Source of the DNA: a virus | Strand: one strand, 5' to 3' | IMG/VR virus record: IMGVR_UViG_3300010885_032927 | Coordinates: 1-23,579 of that record | Length of the DNA stretch: 23,579 nt | Shown: in pieces, positions 3,012 through 14,316 of the stretch | Numbering within the stretch: position 1 is the stretch's first letter | Layout of the letters: the number at the start of each line of letters is the position of its first letter | Program-made: the position numbers and the translations under genes | Notes under the pieces: model-generated | The model's input: the letters and a program-made list of their open reading frames with translations, nothing else | Told to the model about the DNA's origin: nothing | The model's database searches: none

Positions 3012-3201
3012 GGAATGTCCTTGGGTTGTTAAAAACAAACATAACGAAATGATTACTAATCATTCGACAAAACATAATAAACCTCATAATTGTCATATGA
3101 TATCACCTGAAAAAAGAGGTGGGTTATGGGATGTAAAAGAAGAAACTAAATGTATAGGGAGAAAATTATATGAACACAGAGAGAAAGTTAGCGAGTATTA
3201 G
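2995..3201 (+). CDS. Small cysteine-rich protein, DUF6283-like
   Basis: A 68-residue protein with the pattern CKECPW near the start, NCHM in the middle and a single Cys (KCIG) near the end. These spaced Cys and His residues suggest a small zinc-binding fold of the DUF6283 type. Its role is unknown. It is tightly packed, overlapping the preceding gene by 17 bases and the following RNA ligase gene by 32 bases, which points to translational coupling inside the RNA-repair operon. Confidence 0.78.
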   Translation: MKKPCKECPWVVKNKHNEMITNHSTKHNKPHNCHMISPEKRGGLWDVKEETKCIGRKLYEHREKVSEY

Positions 3202-4192
3202 AATCATCAGTGACATCCAACCTATTGAGGGGGCTGATGTGATTGAATTAGCTATTGTCGACAGTTGGAAGGTTGTTGTTGCTAAGAATGTTGGATATAA
3301 AGTAGGTGATATGGTTATCTACTGTGAAATTGATTCATTCTTACCAATCAGAGATGAGTTTGAATTCTTGAGAAAGACTTCGTATAAAAAAATGTCTGAC
3401 GGAACGGAAGGATTTCGTTTAAAAACAATTAAAATGAGAGGGCAAGTTTCTCAGGGATTAATCTTACCAATGTCTGTTGTAGAATATACTAACGTAGATT
3501 TTGAAATTGGCGTGGATGTAACTAATTTATTAGGAATTAGTAAATACGAACCACCAATTCCTGCTGAATTATCAGGGAAAGTAAAAGGTTTATTCCCTTC
3601 TTTCTTACGTAAAACAGATGAGGAAAGAGTTCAAAACTTGACAAAAGAATATGAGAACTATAAATCATTAGGTCGTAAATTTTATGTGACTGAAAAATTG
3701 GATGGTTCTTCTGCAACATTTTACTTCAGAGACGGTGTATTTGGAGTATGTTCTCGTAACTTAGAATTACTTGAAACTGAAGGTAACACTTTTTGGAGAG
3801 TTGCTCGTGAATTGGATTTGGAAAATAAAATGAAATCTTTGGGTAAAAACATTTCACTCCAAGGGGAATTAATTGGTGAAGGTATTCAAGGGAATCCTTA
3901 CAAAATAAAAGGTCAAACTGTAAAATTCTTTAATTTGTTCGATATTGATTTACAAGTATATCATTCTTTAGCTCATTTGGATAGAGCTCTTGGTATTATG
4001 GGACTTAAAATGGTTCCAATTGTTGATGAGTTTTTCAAATTACCTGAAACTATTGAAACTTTATTAAAATATGCAGATAATAAATCAATATTAAACCCAA
4101 AATTTAATAGAGAGGGGATTGTCATTCGTTCTAACGATAGAACCATCAGTTTCAAGGTTATTAGTAATAAATTCTTATTAAACGAAAAATAA
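3170..4192 (+). CDS. RNA ligase, DRB0094 (Rnl5)-like
   Basis: A 340-residue ATP-dependent RNA ligase. Residues 1-115 form the extra N-terminal OB-like domain typical of the Deinococcus DRB0094 family (MNTERKLASIR start, GADVIELAIV, GDMVIYCEIDSFLP). The nucleotidyltransferase domain follows: motif I EKLDGSS with the adenylated lysine K176, CSRN near 194, motif III around LQGELIGEGIQ (230-240), motif IV REGIVIR (314-320) and motif V SFKVIS (327-332). All catalytic motifs are present, so it should be active. It would seal 3'-OH/5'-phosphate RNA ends. The 32-base overlap with the upstream gene is accepted because this start gives the usual family N-terminus. The next gene begins in its stop codon (TAATG). 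Confidence 0.95.
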   Translation: MNTERKLASIRIISDIQPIEGADVIELAIVDSWKVVVAKNVGYKVGDMVIYCEIDSFLPIRDEFEFLRKTSYKKMSDGTEGFRLKTIKMRGQVSQGLILPMSVVEYTNVDFEIGVDVTNLLGISKYEPPIPAELSGKVKGLFPSFLRKTDEERVQNLTKEYENYKSLGRKFYVTEKLDGSSATFYFRDGVFGVCSRNLELLETEGNTFWRVARELDLENKMKSLGKNISLQGELIGEGIQGNPYKIKGQTVKFFNLFDIDLQVYHSLAHLDRALGIMGLKMVPIVDEFFKLPETIETLLKYADNKSILNPKFNREGIVIRSNDRTISFKVISNKFLLNEK

Positions 4193-4437: not shown

Positions 4438-5520
4438 ATGTTAGAAAGATTGAACAAATATTATGACGAGGGTTTGGTGCAAAAACAATCGCACCCAACC
4501 CTTCCTTTGACTATATGGAACTACACCCCAAAAGTTCAATACGGGGTGACTGGTGACCAATATAAGTTATGGGATGATATCACTGTACAATGTAGAGGAT
4601 TAGTTACTGACGATAACGGAATTGTTGTTGCAAGACCATTTAAAAAATTCTTCAACATAGAAGAAAACCGACATACCTCAACTTCAGATTTTGAAGTATA
4701 TGAAAAAATGGACGGTTCTTTAGGAATCTTATTTAACTATAAGGGGGAATGGGTTCTTGCGACTCGTGGTTCTTTCACTTCTGACCAATCAGTTAAAGGT
4801 ACTGAGTTACTTCAGAAATACGACTATAAGAAATTACACCCTGATTACACTTATTTATTTGAAATAATCTATCCTGAAAACAGAATAGTTTGTTCTTACG
4901 ATTTTGAGGATTTAGTTTTGTTAGGAATGATACACACTGAAAGTGGTGTTGAGGTTGATATCCATTTAGGCACTAATAACGATGTTAGGTTTAAGAATTT
5001 ATTAAATAATCTTGAGTTAAACATTGTTAAAAAATACGACGGTATCAAAGATTATACTTTTTTGAAACGTATGATAGCAGATTCTAAAGAGGGTTTTGTT
5101 GTTAGATTCTCAAATGGTGATAGGATGAAAATAAAAGGTGAAGAATACCTTCGTCTTCATAAAATAATGACTAATGTATCTACAACTGCGGTTTGGGAAG
5201 TTTTAAGTTCTGGCGGTGATATGGAGGAAATAATAAAAGATGTTCCTGATGAGTTCTACAAGAAAATAAAAATGTATGTTCAGGAGTTGAATTATCAGTT
5301 TTACCGTTATTCAGAATATGCTGGTAAGACTCATGATTATTTCCGATACGGTAAGTATGGTGATAATGAGAAAGAATATACTAAAAAAGAATTTGCTGAA
5401 CATTTGGTAAAATGTGATGTTCATCCTAAAGTAAAATCTATCTGTTTTGCTATGTGGGACCAAAAACCATATGACCATATCATATGGAATTTACTTAAAC
5501 CAAAATTCGAAAAGCTATAA
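4438..5520 (+). CDS. RNA ligase, T4 Rnl1-like
   Basis: A 360-residue ATP-dependent RNA ligase of the T4 Rnl1 type. The family block CRGLVTD...ARPFKKFFN (52-73) precedes motif I EKMDGS with lysine K90. Motif III is YLFEIIYPENRIV (139-151), motif IV KEGFVVRF (217-224) and motif V MKIK (230-233). Length is close to the 374 residues of T4 Rnl1. In T4 the enzyme reseals tRNA cut by the host PrrC anticodon nuclease, and a similar anti-defence role is plausible here. A T4-like polynucleotide kinase is not in the window. It has its own promoter and terminator, so it can be expressed separately from the upstream ligase of a different family. Confidence 0.95.
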   Translation: MLERLNKYYDEGLVQKQSHPTLPLTIWNYTPKVQYGVTGDQYKLWDDITVQCRGLVTDDNGIVVARPFKKFFNIEENRHTSTSDFEVYEKMDGSLGILFNYKGEWVLATRGSFTSDQSVKGTELLQKYDYKKLHPDYTYLFEIIYPENRIVCSYDFEDLVLLGMIHTESGVEVDIHLGTNNDVRFKNLLNNLELNIVKKYDGIKDYTFLKRMIADSKEGFVVRFSNGDRMKIKGEEYLRLHKIMTNVSTTAVWEVLSSGGDMEEIIKDVPDEFYKKIKMYVQELNYQFYRYSEYAGKTHDYFRYGKYGDNEKEYTKKEFAEHLVKCDVHPKVKSICFAMWDQKPYDHIIWNLLKPKFEKL

Positions 5521-7756: not shown

Positions 7757-7857
7757 GTGATTGTTGACGTAAAATCAACTTATACTTTAAAATAATTTAG
7801 ATTTTCTTAATAAAGTACAATATTTATTTAAAAAATAAAAAAATATACTGTTTAGGT

Positions 7858-7888
7858 ATTGTTAGAACAGTTTTTTTTACTATCTTTG
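7858..7888 (+). promoter_or_regulatory. Host-type promoter P1 of the giant RNA
   Basis: TTG (7859-7861), a 19-nt spacer and TATCTTTG (7881-7888). It is the first of three same-direction promoters reading toward the hairpin-rich region. The segment between P1 and P2 has no ORF; it contains GGAAA pairing with TTTCC and a small hairpin GGTT-TCCT-AACC. Confidence 0.8.
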
Positions 7889-7956
7889 TAAAACAATTCA
7901 GGGAAATGGTTGGAGTATCTGTAAAACCGTGGTTTCCTAACCTTGAAAAAAAAAAC

Positions 7957-8006
7957 AAAAAAAGATTTGGTAAATCAAAAAACTTTACCTACCTTTGTAC
8001 AACAAA
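7957..8006 (+). repeat. Promoter-containing direct repeat, copy 1
   Basis: This 50-bp segment recurs at 8048-8097. The first 43 bases are identical, and one mismatch separates them from a further matching stretch. Each copy carries a complete TTTG / 20 nt / TACCTTTG promoter. Confidence 0.92.
7966..7997 (+). promoter_or_regulatory. Host-type promoter P2 of the giant RNA
   Basis: TTTG (7966-7969), a 20-nt spacer and TACCTTTG (7990-7997), inside copy 1 of the repeat. The spacer sequence is identical to that of P3. Confidence 0.85.
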
Positions 8007-8047
8007 AGAGATAGACAACGATTCAGATACAAATCTCAAAAAAAAAT

Positions 8048-8097
8048 AAAAAAAGATTTGGTAAATCAAAAAACTTTACCTACCTTTGTAAAACAAA
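8048..8097 (+). repeat. Promoter-containing direct repeat, copy 2
   Basis: The second copy of the 50-bp repeat, offset 91 bp from copy 1. Duplication of a promoter together with its initial transcribed bases points to selection for high transcription. Confidence 0.92.
8057..8088 (+). promoter_or_regulatory. Host-type promoter P3 of the giant RNA
   Basis: TTTG (8057-8060), a 20-nt spacer and TACCTTTG (8081-8088). It is the promoter nearest the structured RNA, with predicted initiation near 8094. Confidence 0.87.
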
Positions 8098-9439
8098 TCG
8101 GAAACGTCCGAAGAAGTTCTTTGAAATATATTATTTATCCATCAGGATGTTGATGATGAGACCCTCGGGTTGATTCTGAGATAACTGAGAAAGATAATCG
8201 GCCGTATATGGTCGTTAAATAAACCTCGAAAGGGGGATAAAGTGGAATCACCTGTGTTAGTGGTTCTGCGGTTTGGGAAACCAAACTCAAGTATACAAGT
8301 GGGATATCAGTGAGCCTGTAGTACCGAGGATGACTTCGTAGGGAAATGGAAAACTGAATGGGCAATGTGGATTGTCTGTTTGAGGTGGGAACACCAATAA
8401 GAATAACCCATAGGAATCAAGTGAGAAGTGTACTTCCAAATACACAATTGCGGGTTCCAATATAAAAGGTGACTTAAAACCGAAGGGGTAATACCTGAAG
8501 GTAAGATATAGAACGAGTGGTGTCGCTAATATCCTTACCAAAGGCCTACCAAGGTCTTGGTACGAAGTAATCTTAAAATATGAGAGTGGGGACACTCTAC
8601 CGAGTAGAAAAGTATCTTATTATTCAAAAGATAATGAGGCTTAAGACGGACCTCTACTTGGAACCATCCACAACACTAAAAACTTATATGCTATTTTAAG
8701 TAAAACTAAAAAACAGATAAGCAAAAGTGTTCGTCAGGGTTTGATGAAAGTCGCCTACACAGTCACGGGTTGTCCGTGGCATACAGAGACCGCAAGTTAA
8801 TGTATATTTTTACAAAAAACCTCTAGGGAGTCGAATCCCGAGTTAGTTCGCAAGACTGAAGAGAGTAGAGTAGTAAAAGAGTAGTTGAACCCTTTAGGAG
8901 TGATTGGTCTAACCAATCGGCGATGAGGATTACCATTCAAAAGATGGTGGAAATGAAGGGAAACAATAATCCTTCTAAAGATTCTCACAAAACGGTGTAT
9001 TCTCAGCCTTTTAGCCTAACTATGAAAACAGTGACTCCAACCGAGGTAATTACGGTATATTCCTCGAGGTAATGAGTTTAAACTTCCCCTTAAAAAAGTC
9101 CCATAGAGTGTGTTTTTGGTTTTTTACTATGTTACAACCTTTATCTACTCTGATTGAGAAATCCAAAAAACAAGTGTGTTTGTGTCAAGATAAGACATCT
9201 TCTCTAAAAGATAAAAAACATCAACACCGATATTCTTAGGTTGTGGATTTTTATGATAACCACAGGTTTTTTATAGGTGTCTAAATAAGTAAAAAACTAA
9301 AAAACATAGACGTTTAGGTCGCGAATTCACCTCACGATAGAAGGTCCCATTCGGTGTCACAAACTGATGGAGTGGTTAAGGTTGTACCACTGAGTAAAAA
9401 GCCCAACGGGAGTAACATGACGATGTTACTCCCTTTTTT
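8094..9439 (+). ncRNA. Giant structured non-coding RNA, GOLLD/ROOL-like or new class
   Basis: About 1.35 kb without a convincing protein gene on either strand, preceded by three promoters and ended by a strong terminator. Perfect or near-perfect hairpins follow one another: CCTC-GAAA-GGGG (8224-8235), GTTTGG-GAAA-CCAAAC (8271-8286), GTGTA/TACAC (8428-8445), GGTAAGATAT with ATATCCTTACC (8500-8539), TACCAA-GGTC-TTGGTA (8547-8562), AGAGTG-GGGA-CACTCT (8583-8598), CACGG-GTTGT-CCGTG (8764-8778), GATTGGT-CTA-ACCAATC (8902-8918), and CGAGG with CCTCG (9042-9066). A 9-bp helix 8600-8608/8653-8661 encloses another hairpin, showing higher-order folding. Structure is dense to about 9070 and sparser and U-rich after that. 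GOLLD and ROOL are large phage-associated ornate RNAs often near tRNA or tmRNA genes. I cannot assign either family by eye. The 5' end is a prediction. Confidence 0.82.
9408..9439 (+). terminator. Strong terminator of the giant RNA
   Basis: An 11-bp perfect stem, GGGAGTAACAT (9408-9418) with ATGTTACTCCC (9423-9433), loop GACG, then six T. No protein gene precedes it within 1.8 kb on the plus strand, so it must end a non-coding transcript. Confidence 0.95.
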
Positions 9440-9490
9440 ATGCTATAAAAACTAATTTTTGTACAACACCAAATAATAATTTTACCGCAT

Positions 9491-9517
9491 AAAAAAACCC
9501 CATCCGAAGATGAGGTT
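9491..9517 (-). terminator. Terminator of the tmRNA gene
   Basis: On the minus strand AACCTCATC pairs with GATGGGGTT around a UUCG tetraloop, followed by seven T. It starts eight bases beyond the mature tmRNA 3' end and faces the giant-RNA terminator about 50 bp away. Confidence 0.93.
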
Positions 9518-9524
9518 TAATGAG

Positions 9525-9910
9525 TGGAGGTAGAGGGGTTCGAACCCTCGTGTTGTACACCTTACCTATTAAGGACTACACGCTTAGGATAACATTTTCT
9601 AATGTTCCAAAAATATTTAGTTTGTTCTTCACCATCGTAAACTAACAACCAATGGACGACTCGATTTTGGGTTCAGTCATTTTTCCACCTTTGTAAAGAC
9701 TTCTGTTCCTAGGTTGTATGTCCACCGACCCGTATGGTGTTTCCTATATGTTAGGCAACAACCGCAGCGTCTTCACGGATTAATCCGATGGTCGCCATTT
9801 TGTCTAAAACGTTTCCGTTTACAGTTTACATCCGTAGATTTAAGTGATAGGATACATCTCACTGCGTGCCCCGAATAACTAACAATGCCAGTCAATTCCA
9901 AGTTACCCCC
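9525..9910 (-). ncRNA. ssrA: Phage-encoded transfer-messenger RNA
   Basis: A 386-nt RNA read on the minus strand. The 5' end GGGGGTA pairs with 3' TACCTCC as a 7-bp acceptor stem, with G-U at the third pair, the alanine-identity determinant of tmRNA and tRNA-Ala, and discriminator A at 9525. The T arm is perfect: GAGGG-TTCGAAC-CCCTC. The tmRNA-specific stretch CTAAGCGTGTAG near the 3' side closely matches CUAAGCAUGUAG of the E. coli molecule. The mRNA-like part has a resume site of the form ACT-GTA-AAC-GGA, aligned with E. coli AGUC-GCA-AAC-GAC, and an open frame ending in GCC TAA. CCA is not encoded (CTC follows the discriminator), so it must be added. It would rescue stalled ribosomes and tag nascent proteins for Clp-type proteolysis. 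It has its own promoter and terminator. Confidence 0.95.
9751..9822 (-). other. tmRNA tag-peptide reading frame
   Basis: From the predicted resume codon GTA (9820-9822) the frame runs 23 codons to TAA (9751-9753). The tag begins VNGNVLDKM and ends IREDAAVVA. This is longer than the roughly 10-residue host-type tags I know (E. coli ANDENYALAA; Bacteroidetes types ending YALAA), and ends in VVA rather than LAA. The hydrophobic small-residue C-terminus still fits a Clp degron. The resume codon is placed by alignment with E. coli by eye; the frame is supported because an alternative frame gives a highly basic, non-degron end. Confidence 0.72.
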
Positions 9911-9936
9911 ATATGTTAAAGAACTTATTTCTCCTA

Positions 9937-9967
9937 CAAAGATAGTAAAGTTTTCTCAATTACCAAA
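9937..9967 (-). promoter_or_regulatory. Bacteroidetes-type promoter of the tmRNA
   Basis: On the minus strand: TTTG (9964-9967), a 19-nt spacer and TATCTTTG (9937-9944). The start of transcription would lie roughly 20 bases before the mature 5' end at 9910, leaving a short leader for RNase P removal. Confidence 0.88.
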
Positions 9968-9973
9968 CTATTT

Positions 9974-9982
9974 TATATTTAT
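9974..9982 (+). promoter_or_regulatory. Candidate late promoter
   Basis: TATATTTAT, followed by AT-rich sequence to the GTG start at 9999. It lies back to back with the tmRNA promoter, making a divergent late/host-type promoter region. Confidence 0.5.
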
Positions 9983-9998
9983 ATGTAAATAAATATTT

Positions 9999-11363
9999 GT
10001 GAAAGATTCAAAAAACGCTAAGATACTATTTGAGAATGAGTATGTAGTATTGGTACAGGTGTTCAATAAGAATGCCGCAACCTATTACGGACCCCCCAAG
10101 GTTACTGAATTATATGACCAAGATTTTAGTCATGGTGATTTATATTTTGCCGTTAGTAAATATAATCCTGGCCCTGAGTACATATACACACTATACAAAC
10201 CTACAGATGGTGAACTTGAATATTATTCAGGTGTTGAATTAAAACTTGAAAGTTACGATAACATCACATTTAAGTATCCATACCTAAAACCTTATGTACA
10301 GGATATTAGGGGGAATAGTGAAATATATGATTTATTATTGAAAATTAAGAACGGTCAAAAGGTTAATAACTGGGAGGCTAGTGACTCTGACCCAATTATT
10401 TATGATATTAAATTTAACGAACAAACCCCTGGTAAAAGTAGAGTTAAATTAAAATTTGACGATTATGAGGATTATTGGAAATTATTTGATTTAAAAGATG
10501 GTGATATTTGGTTTGGAAATTACATATATTCTAATTATGATTCCTACGAATTTGAAAGTGCAGATTTTGCTGATGAGGATTGGATAGAGGGTTATTTATT
10601 ACGTGAATTAAATGACGAAAACCAAATTAAATTAAAAGAAATTTTAACACTATTATCTCCAGAACTATCTAAATTACGAAATGATGAAGAATGGAAAAAG
10701 GTTTCTAATTTACTATTATCAACATTTGAACGTGAATGTGAAGAAATTAAACATGAATGGTTGTCAGAAAAAAATAACTGTAAAGAACGAGGAGCACGTA
10801 AGATGATTGAGGACGATTGTTGTAATTTTTTTCAAAATTATGGAATATTCAATATGGGTAGTTGTTTTTATAGTTATGTGACAACAGTATCGGTATTATT
10901 ATCTTTATATAAAATGGTTGATGAAAGACATATAACGGTTAGTGAGGTTTTAAGTGATATTGGTCATAAATCAGGAAATATTGGTGGATGGGAAGAATAT
11001 TCTTATGAACAAGATTGTATTGATTTTGACGATGAATCTTTCAATCGTAGTTGTGGTTGGCAATTAGATAAGATGTTTACTAAACTTGAAGATTCTGAAG
11101 AATTTGAGGATATTAAAAAATTCTCAGATAATGCGTCAAAAATTTTAAGTAAGTACGACATTGAAACTAATTACAAATTACCTAAAGACGAATCAAGAAC
11201 ATTTAGAATTATTAAAATAGACCCAAAAACTAATAAAATCCATGTTGTAGTTTCTAAGAAGGGTGAGTATCAAGGTGAACAAAGAAGTTATGATTTTGAA
11301 AATTTTGACCAATTTTTACATCAACCCGAATTATTTGAAAATAGATTTGTTAAAGTAAAGTAA
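9999..11363 (+). CDS. Phage protein of unknown function (454 aa)
   Basis: A 454-residue protein read from GTG 9999; no ATG appears in frame before residue 265, well inside a continuous coding region, so GTG is the best start. The protein is acidic and rich in Tyr, Trp and Asp. Residues 1-215 look beta-rich and contain several aromatic strands (YYGPPKVTELYDQDF, GDIWFGNYIYSNYDSYEFE). A helical section with a cluster of cysteines follows (ECEE, NCKERG, DDCCNFF, GSCFY, QDCIDF, SCGW, about residues 245-350), which may hold a metal or disulfides. The C-terminal 60 residues look like another small domain. A late-type promoter suggests a virion or late function. I recognise no family. Confidence 0.8.
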   Translation: MKDSKNAKILFENEYVVLVQVFNKNAATYYGPPKVTELYDQDFSHGDLYFAVSKYNPGPEYIYTLYKPTDGELEYYSGVELKLESYDNITFKYPYLKPYVQDIRGNSEIYDLLLKIKNGQKVNNWEASDSDPIIYDIKFNEQTPGKSRVKLKFDDYEDYWKLFDLKDGDIWFGNYIYSNYDSYEFESADFADEDWIEGYLLRELNDENQIKLKEILTLLSPELSKLRNDEEWKKVSNLLLSTFERECEEIKHEWLSEKNNCKERGARKMIEDDCCNFFQNYGIFNMGSCFYSYVTTVSVLLSLYKMVDERHITVSEVLSDIGHKSGNIGGWEEYSYEQDCIDFDDESFNRSCGWQLDKMFTKLEDSEEFEDIKKFSDNASKILSKYDIETNYKLPKDESRTFRIIKIDPKTNKIHVVVSKKGEYQGEQRSYDFENFDQFLHQPELFENRFVKVK

Positions 11364-12259: not shown

Positions 12260-12289
12260 CATAAAAAAAGGGGTTATTAAACCCCTTTT
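12260..12289 (-). terminator. Terminator of the Clp ATPase gene
   Basis: A 10-bp perfect stem, AAAAGGGGTT with AACCCCTTTT and a four-base loop, with a T-tract on the minus strand. The stop codon of the ATPase (12277-12279) lies in the hairpin loop. The hairpin could also work on the plus strand. Confidence 0.85.
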
Positions 12290-14316
12290 CTTTTTCTTAT
12301 AACTTTCTTCCCATCTTTGAATTTGACATCCCCATTTTCACTGATTAACGTGTATTCAATATTTTCTTGGATGTTACTCTTAAGAACTTCTTCCGAGATA
12401 AAATCTTCTATTTTATCCTGAATAGCTCTTTTTAGTGGACGAGCCCCGTACATCTCATCAAACCCAACCTCAGAAATCATGTCAATAATAGAGTCATCAA
12501 ATTTAATATTATATTTAAGCCCTGTTAATCTTTCAGATAAAACATTCAACTCAAGTTTAACAATTTTCTTAACATCTTCTTTCACTAATGAATTGAAAAT
12601 GATAACTTCATCAATACGATTTAAAAATTCAGGTGCGAAAAACTTCTTAAGTTCTTTCTTCAAAACTTCTCTTTTTTGTTCTTCCTCAACATAAGAACTT
12701 GAGTTAGTTTTAAAACCTACACCAGCTCCAAAATCTTGTAGTTTTTTAACTCCAACATTCGATGTCATGATGATAATACAGTTTTTGAAATTAATCTTTC
12801 TTCCCATACCATCAGTAAGGTGACCGTCATCCAACACTTGTAATAATGTTGAGAATATGTCTTTGTTTGCCTTTTCAATCTCGTCAAACAAAATTACCGA
12901 GTAAGGTTTGTTCTTAACTTGTTCAGTTAATTGACCACCTTCATCATAACCTACATATCCTGGAGGTGCCCCAATTAATCTTGAAATACTATGTTTTTCT
13001 TGGTATTCAGACATGTCCACACGAATCATATTTTCTTCACTACCAAACATTTGTTTTGCCAATTGTTTTGCCAAGTAGGTTTTACCCACACCAGTTGAAC
13101 CAAGGAAAATAAATGAACCGATTGGTTTGTTAGGGTCTTTAATACCTAATCTGTTTCGTCTGATTGACTTAGCAATTTTCATAACCGCTTCAGATTGTCC
13201 AATTACTTTATCAGACAAACTACTATCTAATTGACTTAATAACATTGTTTCATCGGCGTTTAATTTACTAATAGGAATTTTGGTCATGTTTGAAACAACC
13301 TCATAAACCAACTCAATAGAAACTTCTTTCTTCTTAACTTGAAGTTCATCTTCAAATTTTTTCTTCTCAATATCTAATTTATTAAGAATACGTTTTTCTT
13401 TATCACGTAAGTTTGCCGCCTCCTCGTAATTTTGTTTTTTAACTACCTCAAGTTTTTCAATTTTAACATCCGCAGCCTCTTGCTTTAATTTCTCAATAAT
13501 TTCAGGCATTTTAATCTCAACCTGACATCTTGCACCAACCTCATCAATAATGTCAAATGCCTTATCAGGGAACTCTCTATCAGTGATATATCTTGCCGCC
13601 AAATCAACACATACAGAAAGTACTTCATCAGTATAGGACACCTTATGAAACGTTTCGTACTTATCTTTAACATTTTTAAGAATTTCTAATGTTTCTTCTT
13701 TTGTTGAAGCGTCAACAATAACCTTTTGGAATCGTCTTTCTAACGCTCCGTCTTTCTCAAAGTTCTTACGATACTCATCAAGAGTTGTAGCACCAACACA
13801 TTGAATTTCTCCACGAGCAAGTGCTGGTTTAAAGATATTTGATGCGTCTAAAGAACCTGATGAATTACCCGCTCCAACAATTGTATGAATCTCATCTATA
13901 AACACGATGATATTTGGAGCATTTTGTAACTCCTCGATGATTACTTTCATACGTTCCTCAAACTGACCACGATATTTTGTACCTGCAACGATTGAAGTCA
14001 TATCTAACGACACAATTCTTTTATCCATTAAATTTCTTGGACATTCACCGTTAAAAATTTTAATAGCTAATCCTTCTACAATTGCGGTTTTACCACAACC
14101 AGGTTCTCCAATAATAATAGGGTTGTTTTTCTTTCTACGAGAAAGAATTTGAGCTATCCTCGTAATTTCTCTCTCTCTACCAACTACAGGGTCTAACTTA
14201 CCTTGTTCAGCTAATTTGATTAAATCTCTACTAAAGTTATCCAACACGGGTGTTGAAGAGTCAGATGTTGATTTAGGTGGGTTATTTTTACCCCCATTGT
14301 CCATGGATTCTATCAT
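12277..14316 (-). CDS. ClpC-like double AAA+ unfoldase lacking the N-domain
   Basis: A 679-residue Hsp100 ATPase. The first AAA+ module has Walker A GEPGCGKT (70-77) and Walker B VFIDEIH (138-144). A middle region at about 284-312 carries a UVR-like sequence (VVKKQNYEEAANLRDKE) as in ClpC. The second module has Walker A GSTGVGKT (406-413), Walker B VILFDE (474-479) and the pore-loop GYVGYDEGG (453-461). VGF at 533-535 sits where ClpA and ClpC carry the [LIV]GF/L loop that docks on ClpP. Host ClpC proteins have about 150 N-terminal residues that bind adaptors; here only about 25 disordered residues precede the first module. It could feed host ClpP independently of host adaptors. No ClpP gene is in the window. 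The same window encodes a tmRNA whose tag would be a natural substrate. Confidence 0.95.
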   Translation of the reverse strand: MIESMDNGGKNNPPKSTSDSSTPVLDNFSRDLIKLAEQGKLDPVVGREREITRIAQILSRRKKNNPIIIGEPGCGKTAIVEGLAIKIFNGECPRNLMDKRIVSLDMTSIVAGTKYRGQFEERMKVIIEELQNAPNIIVFIDEIHTIVGAGNSSGSLDASNIFKPALARGEIQCVGATTLDEYRKNFEKDGALERRFQKVIVDASTKEETLEILKNVKDKYETFHKVSYTDEVLSVCVDLAARYITDREFPDKAFDIIDEVGARCQVEIKMPEIIEKLKQEAADVKIEKLEVVKKQNYEEAANLRDKEKRILNKLDIEKKKFEDELQVKKKEVSIELVYEVVSNMTKIPISKLNADETMLLSQLDSSLSDKVIGQSEAVMKIAKSIRRNRLGIKDPNKPIGSFIFLGSTGVGKTYLAKQLAKQMFGSEENMIRVDMSEYQEKHSISRLIGAPPGYVGYDEGGQLTEQVKNKPYSVILFDEIEKANKDIFSTLLQVLDDGHLTDGMGRKINFKNCIIIMTSNVGVKKLQDFGAGVGFKTNSSSYVEEEQKREVLKKELKKFFAPEFLNRIDEVIIFNSLVKEDVKKIVKLELNVLSERLTGLKYNIKFDDSIIDMISEVGFDEMYGARPLKRAIQDKIEDFISEEVLKSNIQENIEYTLISENGDVKFKDGKKVIRKRKGV

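Follow-up and report, generated by a model that had tools for sequence, protein, structure and literature searches.

GOLLD, ROOL and OLE are large RNAs that have been reported to form multimers (accessible part of PMC12286853). An 833-nt GOLLD, env-38, assembles into a homo-14-mer, i.e., a hollow cage with a disordered linker inside; its loop L21a, which makes the intermolecular contact B8, switches between GC and CG, and ribosomes are stated, via another cited work, to bind GOLLD in pull-downs (same part of PMC12286853). The structure of GOLLD is solved, and its function is the question. Separately, phage Melnitz encodes its own ssrA, and tmRNA was found in 402 of 18,146 phage genomes (accessible part of PMC9004378). 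In the accessible parts of PMC12286853, PMC6582537, PMC5643018, PMC9004378 and PMC4383926, we found no phage literature linking GOLLD to tmRNA or naming the second RNA element described below, and a search combining GOLLD, tmRNA and bacteriophage gave mycobacterial matches; either may be in print.

The DNA analysed here, called the window, is a 23,579-base IMG/VR virus record that carries a large terminase gene and is of phage or prophage origin. We consider it likely that a single transcription unit of a T4-like phage makes a full-length GOLLD RNA and, downstream of it, another conserved structured RNA, hereafter the companion, and that this unit has a role related to translation. The host of this phage is probably a member of the Bacteroidota, because of the promoter type and a weak terminase match, the nearest named records belonging to a Microcystis phage, at 27.7%, and to phages of Flavobacterium, at 27.0%. 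A host search of genome contigs returned no match to the window-type 5′-domain pattern and 12 matches to the 3′-domain pattern, seven of which are GOLLD by nhmmer (all Streptococcus) and five of which are not (four Flavobacteriaceae, one MAG); a window-type 5′ domain or tmRNA match is absent from all 12. The same 23-kb fragment also holds two RNA ligase genes (3170-4192 and 4438-5520; PF09414, RNA_lig_T4_1). The features of the unit and of the adjoining tmRNA are collected in Table 1.

Table 1. Features of the GOLLD-companion unit and of the convergent tmRNA unit (window coordinates).
Feature	Position	Strand	Basis
Promoter 1, Bacteroidota type (TTG...TATCTTTG)	7859..7888	+	Pattern scan
Promoter 2, Bacteroidota type (TTTG...TACCTTTG)	7966..7997	+	Pattern scan; near-exact repeat at 8057 (blastn)
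Promoter 3, proximal	8057..8088	+	Pattern scan
GOLLD 5′ domain	8114..8599	+	nhmmer: 100/132 GOLLD loci, 70 distinct (38 loci in this count fetched by 5′-domain pattern)
Pairing 8204-8207 with 8293-8296	8204..8296	+	Standard pairs in 61/61 at each position
GNRA-type loops	8228-8231 GAAA, 8277-8280 GAAA, 8388-8391 GGAA, 8589-8592 GGGA	+	By eye
GOLLD 3′ domain (RF02032)	8600..9009	+	Model 1-416 of 416, 320.4 bits, E 2.2e-91, cut-off 150
Variable A-rich linker, putative cage-interior part by position	8662..8735	+	Rfam alignment and accessible part of PMC12286853; mapping inferred
Hairpin, loop GUCGAA, putative L21a (B8) by position	8826..8839	+	Mapping by position to accessible part of PMC12286853
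GOLLD-companion spacer; tRNA-Met here in relatives	9010..9029	+	Companion profile, ARAGORN
Companion RNA element with its terminator, unmatched in Rfam	9030..9439	+	Profile match over 437/439 positions
Conserved companion hairpin; loop 9250-9255 pairs with 9305-9310	9242..9264	+	Covarying loop pairing
Partner strand of loop 9250-9255	9305..9310	+	Same loop-pairing test
Second conserved companion hairpin, stem 9350-9355/9363-9368	9350..9368	+	Compensatory change in 5/6 pairs
Intrinsic terminator, 11-bp stem and T run	9408..9439 (9408-9433 in the scan)	+	Terminator scan; closes unit
tmRNA-unit terminator	9495..9518	-	Terminator scan
Complete tmRNA, convergent with GOLLD	9522..9910	-	RF00023, 68.5 bits vs 47, model 1-374 (whole)
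tmRNA tag frame GNVLDKMATIGLIREDAAVVA and stop	9751..9816	-	Read from sequence; identical peptide in L021, L189, L219
tmRNA promoter, same Bacteroidota type	9937..9967	-	Pattern scan

Judged by its sequence, the core of the stretch is GOLLD, a known family. The first-pass annotation had expected a large ornate phage RNA of the GOLLD or ROOL kind, and the covariance-model search that it called for matched GOLLD, and exactly GOLLD, over the whole Rfam model. It had described the RNA as either a divergent, extra-long member or a new class. Divergence is not supported, as the score of the window lies within the 268-331 bits that 32 relatives obtain with the same model. The extra length holds for the whole unit (about 8095-9440), which is unusually long, but not for the GOLLD core, which at 896 nt is normal for the family; the excess is no random tail but a second element, conserved behind GOLLD in some of the phages.

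The wider GOLLD set comprised 136 loci, obtained from two pattern scans, two huge-phage records and the window; the 3′ domain is present in 132 of them (84 distinct sequences). Loci throughout were collected with exact patterns, so that conserved copies are favoured, and one later scan contributed those among the matches listed. Where the 3′ pattern alone had retrieved the locus and the upstream sequence measures 550 nt or more, the 5′ domain is present as well in 58 of 78 loci (43 of 55 distinct). The layout is thus two-part, with a conserved 3′ domain and a separate, less conserved 5′ domain.

Covariation, a check proposed in the same annotation, proved strong in both GOLLD domains. Using an alignment of 61 rows with 60-100% identity to the window, and all other column pairs as the background without tree simulation, compensatory change was observed in 90 of 119 pairs in the 5′ domain (61 above 99.9% of the background) and in 76 of 109 in the 3′ domain (58 above it), i.e., in 166 of 228 pairs overall, with 119 above that level. 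Of the four pairs that join 8204-8207 to 8293-8296, two are variable, and 8206/8294 occurs as four pair types. Extra, non-nested pairings of several types were found at 8205-8206/8294-8295, 8646-8649/8731-8734 and 8751-8754/8920-8923 (59-61 of 61 rows), and 8721-8722/8792-8793 agrees with the published L20 x J13/15 contact. The consensus helix 8117-8123/8894-8900 is without significant covariation in the 61-row alignment. At least ten hairpins had been claimed, and the 61-row consensus has well over ten; three GNRA-type loops had been claimed and four are read by eye; the nested 9-bp helix corresponds to 8600-8608/8653-8661, enclosing 8611-8624/8630-8641, with a paired fraction of 1.00 (rounded). 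The stretch 8095-9009 folds more stably than its shuffled versions (z = −4.82, 20 shuffles).

A protein-coding reading was rejected. The three antisense ORFs in 8094-9439 (76, 102 and 63 aa) are without internal stops in only 8, 6 and 5 of the 61 aligned rows, respectively, with the window included and insertions kept. The protein-frame check suggested earlier thus favours RNA, and the view that the region contains no credible ORF holds.

The three upstream promoters and the strong terminator noted earlier were both recovered, the promoters being of the Bacteroidota type. The motif TTG/TTTG-N-TAnnTTTG, which we take to be the Bacteroidota-type promoter consensus, has 8 strict matches on both strands of the whole window, compared with 1.4 expected, whereas a sigma-70 scan found 4 sites with 7.4 expected, i.e., not above chance. 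At least one TTG-type match is present in 56 of 63 distinct upstream regions (window included), and in 37 of the 63 a promoter lies 54-58 nt 5′ of the GOLLD 5′ domain. Transcription would start near 8095, and pattern scans of the + strand from 8089 to 9407 detected neither a Bacteroidota-type promoter nor a terminator-like site. The terminator stem shows a G-C to A-U change in locus L011. Short segments separate the three promoters (7889-8056) and are possibly small RNAs; the segment at about 8005-8042 recurs, by eye, 5′ of GOLLD in the huge phage L002.

The contact loops allow a comparison with the published cage. At the putative L21a position, the 84 distinct sequences carry UCGAA (48), GCAA (18), CGGCAG (3) or divergent loops (13), or have no letters there (2). 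Self-complementary GC/CG loops of the UCGAA or GCAA class are therefore present in 66 of 84, and the contact-loop classes are consistent with the window GOLLD being a cage-former. By analogy with the solved env-38 GOLLD, the core would form a hollow cage held together by loop contacts, and the A-rich linker would lie in its interior.

The RNA gene that faces this unit encodes a tmRNA, which by eye has the G3-U70 pair and no encoded CCA end. A canonical tmRNA tag ends in ALAA. The window tag, of about 21 residues, instead ends in AVVA. Six tmRNAs were missed by the tag pattern, of which three are partial and three apparently end in S; in these three relatives the last tag residue is thus S, not A. 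Across 51 distinct tag genes of 21 residues, which encode 33 peptides, the entropies of the three codon positions are 0.79, 0.46 and 1.17, the second varying least, although the pattern fixed residues 1 and 21 and restricted residues 2, 3 and 20, so that constancy there is partly built in. The dN/dS of the same genes (51 distinct, 21-residue only) is roughly 0.37. The tag, tmRNA-locus and convergence counts leave out L001 and L140, which are copies of the window, as well as GOLLD matches under 60 bits and tmRNA matches under 80 bits.

Both RNAs occur on 96 contigs, assembled by joining adjoining pieces by coordinates (68 distinct GOLLDs, 63 distinct tmRNAs), and they are convergent in all 96, at distances of 116-6695 nt. 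Rfam confirmed a tmRNA in 9 of 10 nhmmer-positive loci (the exception being L093) and found one in 8 of 8 further loci scanned. Among 14 GOLLD loci negative for tmRNA by both nhmmer and Rfam, 12 also have no tmRNA on adjoining DNA and two do. Starting from tmRNAs fetched by a tmRNA pattern alone, GOLLD is in the locus for 29 of 66 distinct sequences; with at least 3 kb available on the 3′ side, it is there for 16 of 25 and not for 9.

This arrangement can be read in a second way, namely that inherited synteny alone places GOLLD, together with its companion, next to the tmRNA and that they do no joint work, to which we give an even chance. When the presence of tmRNA is mapped on a tree of 102 distinct GOLLDs (56 have it, 35 lack it and 11 are unscored), 8 changes are required, compared with 28 in shuffles; at least two GOLLDs labelled as lacking tmRNA (L055, L102) carry one on adjoining DNA. 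The label is clustered, so the loci are not independent. Other genes travel along as well: of the 77 tmRNA-bearing loci that measure 8 kb or more, 66 have a Clp-like ATPase, 70 an M20-like peptidase and 64 a 454-aa ORF, compared with 5, 0 and 0 of 34 GOLLD loci without tmRNA (near-duplicates counted). Base pairing between GOLLD and tmRNA was considered and rejected, since GOLLD shows no preference for its own tmRNA (means −165.83 and −165.73 for the first 14 of 26 dissimilar pairs), which also fits mere synteny. However, convergence is kept in every contig although the intervening distance varies so widely, and, where the downstream sequence measures at least 700 nt, a tmRNA accompanies 17 of 17 distinct GOLLDs that have the companion, compared with 67 of 109 overall, though a companion locus found later, L259, has no tmRNA in 4.1 kb. 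As the linkage is inherited within a clade, a shared role of GOLLD and tmRNA is suggested only. The Clp-like AAA+ ATPase of the window (12277-14316, − strand; domains AAA_2 and ClpB_D2-small) contains a GVGF segment, presumably near the position of the ClpP-docking loop of ClpC.

The companion was found by profile search in 36 of 259 loci, window included (18 distinct sequences). When 17 distinct copies were aligned, that of L005 was 96% identical to the window and the 15 others 51-57%. A six-sequence seed profile detected unseeded copies at E values of 1e-11 to 1e-17 before iteration, and three (L189, L260, L157) were found only with the iterated profile. A blastn search over the loci of the two pattern scans found it in the window and 11 close relatives only, and an 18-base scan added to this known clade three contigs (L137-L139) otherwise dissimilar to the window; confinement to one clade was rejected, as divergent copies are present among the later-fetched loci. 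No Rfam family reaches its gathering score over the companion in the window and eight other loci, and matches up to E = 10 in 7800-10000 are at chance level there. Compared with the rest of the window, the best match of the companion is 14 A-rich bases in common with the linker (E 0.03), taken as chance.

Two hairpins of the companion are conserved. The loop of the first pairs with a strand about 35-45 nt downstream, with 5-6 standard pairs in 17 of 17 copies and 12 distinct combinations, the anchor having been chosen after viewing the sequences and a narrower one having caught only 10 copies (49 of 60 pairs). The window combines UUUAUG with CAUAGA, and other copies UUUGUG with CACAAA, ACUAU with AUAGU, AGUAUU with AAUACU, GGUAUU with GAUACC, and others. 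None of 2000 trials with re-dealt partners (0 of 2000) reached the observed total, although a run of 5-6 pairs also results in 102 of 248 cases in which loop and partner were swapped. The second hairpin has stems of 5-9 pairs and 10 different sequences among 18 copies (best register, without a control). For the whole element, a MAFFT alignment yields a weak consensus: of its 35 pairs, 10 show compensatory change and none exceeds 99.9% of the background. The window copy folds more stably than shuffles (9010-9440, z = −3.06, 100 shuffles), but low folding energy is not a constant feature of the element, as z is −2.22, −1.25 and +0.47 for three other copies.

The gap between GOLLD and the companion bears on whether the two are parts of one RNA. 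In the window and 15 further loci it spans 15-27 nt, and in 12 loci it spans 85-95 nt and each time contains a tRNA (tRNA-Met in 11 by ARAGORN; a tRNA in the twelfth, L205, by Rfam); loci found later have gaps of about 87 nt (L259) and about 94 nt (L260). Four loci (L019, L008, L025, L029) have a gap of 644 nt, which in L019 holds, by eye, a GIY-YIG-like endonuclease frame. Rfam and tRNA scans detected no tRNA gene in the window, which thus lacks the tRNA-Met found at this place in relatives. More generally, 35 of the 84 distinct sequences have a tRNA no more than 1.5 kb away from GOLLD. By eye, tRNA-Glu-like genes with insertions apparently in the D loop adjoin GOLLD in huge-phage relatives (L002, 8159-8255 and 9356-9453; L003, 7768-7885; also 3′ of GOLLD in L050 and L058), the two copies of L002 being near-identical, one on each side of GOLLD.

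A tRNA or an endonuclease frame in the gap would be hard to keep within one folded RNA, and the companion may accordingly be no third GOLLD domain but a separate RNA with its own task, freed by processing; in our judgement, the considerations for and against this are balanced. The 12 tRNA-containing gaps and the frame in L019 speak for it, whereas the shortness of the gap in the window and the 15 loci like it speaks against it, as does the fact that the companion always follows GOLLD on the same strand in the DNA examined. It does so in 34 of 34 companion loci that contain GOLLD; of the two remaining, L257 extends only 114 nt upstream, and the GOLLD of L151 lies on an adjoining piece, L014.

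It is much less probable that the companion is a decaying or selfish sequence without function. It is found in a minority of GOLLDs (17 of 109 distinct ones with at least 700 nt downstream), and it can be lost, as the L009 clade, 89-91% identical to the window from 7948 on, is without it; however, decay does not account for a loop pairing that is compensated across its 12 combinations. That the whole stretch is a new RNA class unrelated to GOLLD is refuted by the whole-model Rfam match, at more than twice the cut-off score, and with nothing in its favour for the core we give it practically no credence.

We thus return to the reading of one unit, GOLLD followed by the companion, with a role in translation. 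Judging from the anatomy of the gap, tRNA-processing enzymes may cut GOLLD and the companion apart in relatives that carry the tRNA-Met, and the two may stay fused in the window phage, in which the gap has no tRNA. From the gene neighbourhood, the target of the unit in infected cells would be components of translation, be it tRNAs, ribosomes or tmRNA, and the phage tmRNA alongside would add a phage-specific tag. A further-reaching proposal, which we regard as unlikely, is that GOLLD cage, companion and tmRNA form one phage system that takes over ribosome rescue, in which the cage, with the companion as an appendage, as cargo or absent, would hold translation components, and the tag would be read by the phage Clp-like unfoldase rather than by the host route.

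The companion and the convergent tmRNA provide a first handle on the purpose of the GOLLD cage. Since the job of tmRNA is known, the questions become concrete: does the companion belong to the cage, is it cargo or is it an RNA of its own, and is the cage involved in ribosome rescue? Likewise, a tag that is kept as a peptide and does not end in ALAA raises the question of whether phages divert tagged proteins from the proteases of the host.

Compared with the other large multimeric RNAs, ROOL and OLE, the window has no Rfam match to either along its whole length, and none up to E = 10 in 7800-10000. Like Melnitz, the window phage has its own ssrA; unlike that of Melnitz, its tmRNA matches the one-piece Rfam model, adjoins GOLLD and encodes a conserved non-ALAA tag of about 21 residues. 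The window GOLLD can also be compared with env-38: both GOLLDs are phage-encoded, have a complete 3′ domain, a separate 5′ domain, a variable linker and matching contact-loop classes, and are similar in core length (896 nt vs. 833 nt), and the conserved GAAA loop in the 5′ domain of the window agrees with the description of env-38 (accessible part of PMC12286853). While the two are similar in these respects, we note three differences. First, there is no tRNA in the window. Second, the window GOLLD is followed by a conserved companion. Third, it faces a convergent phage tmRNA.
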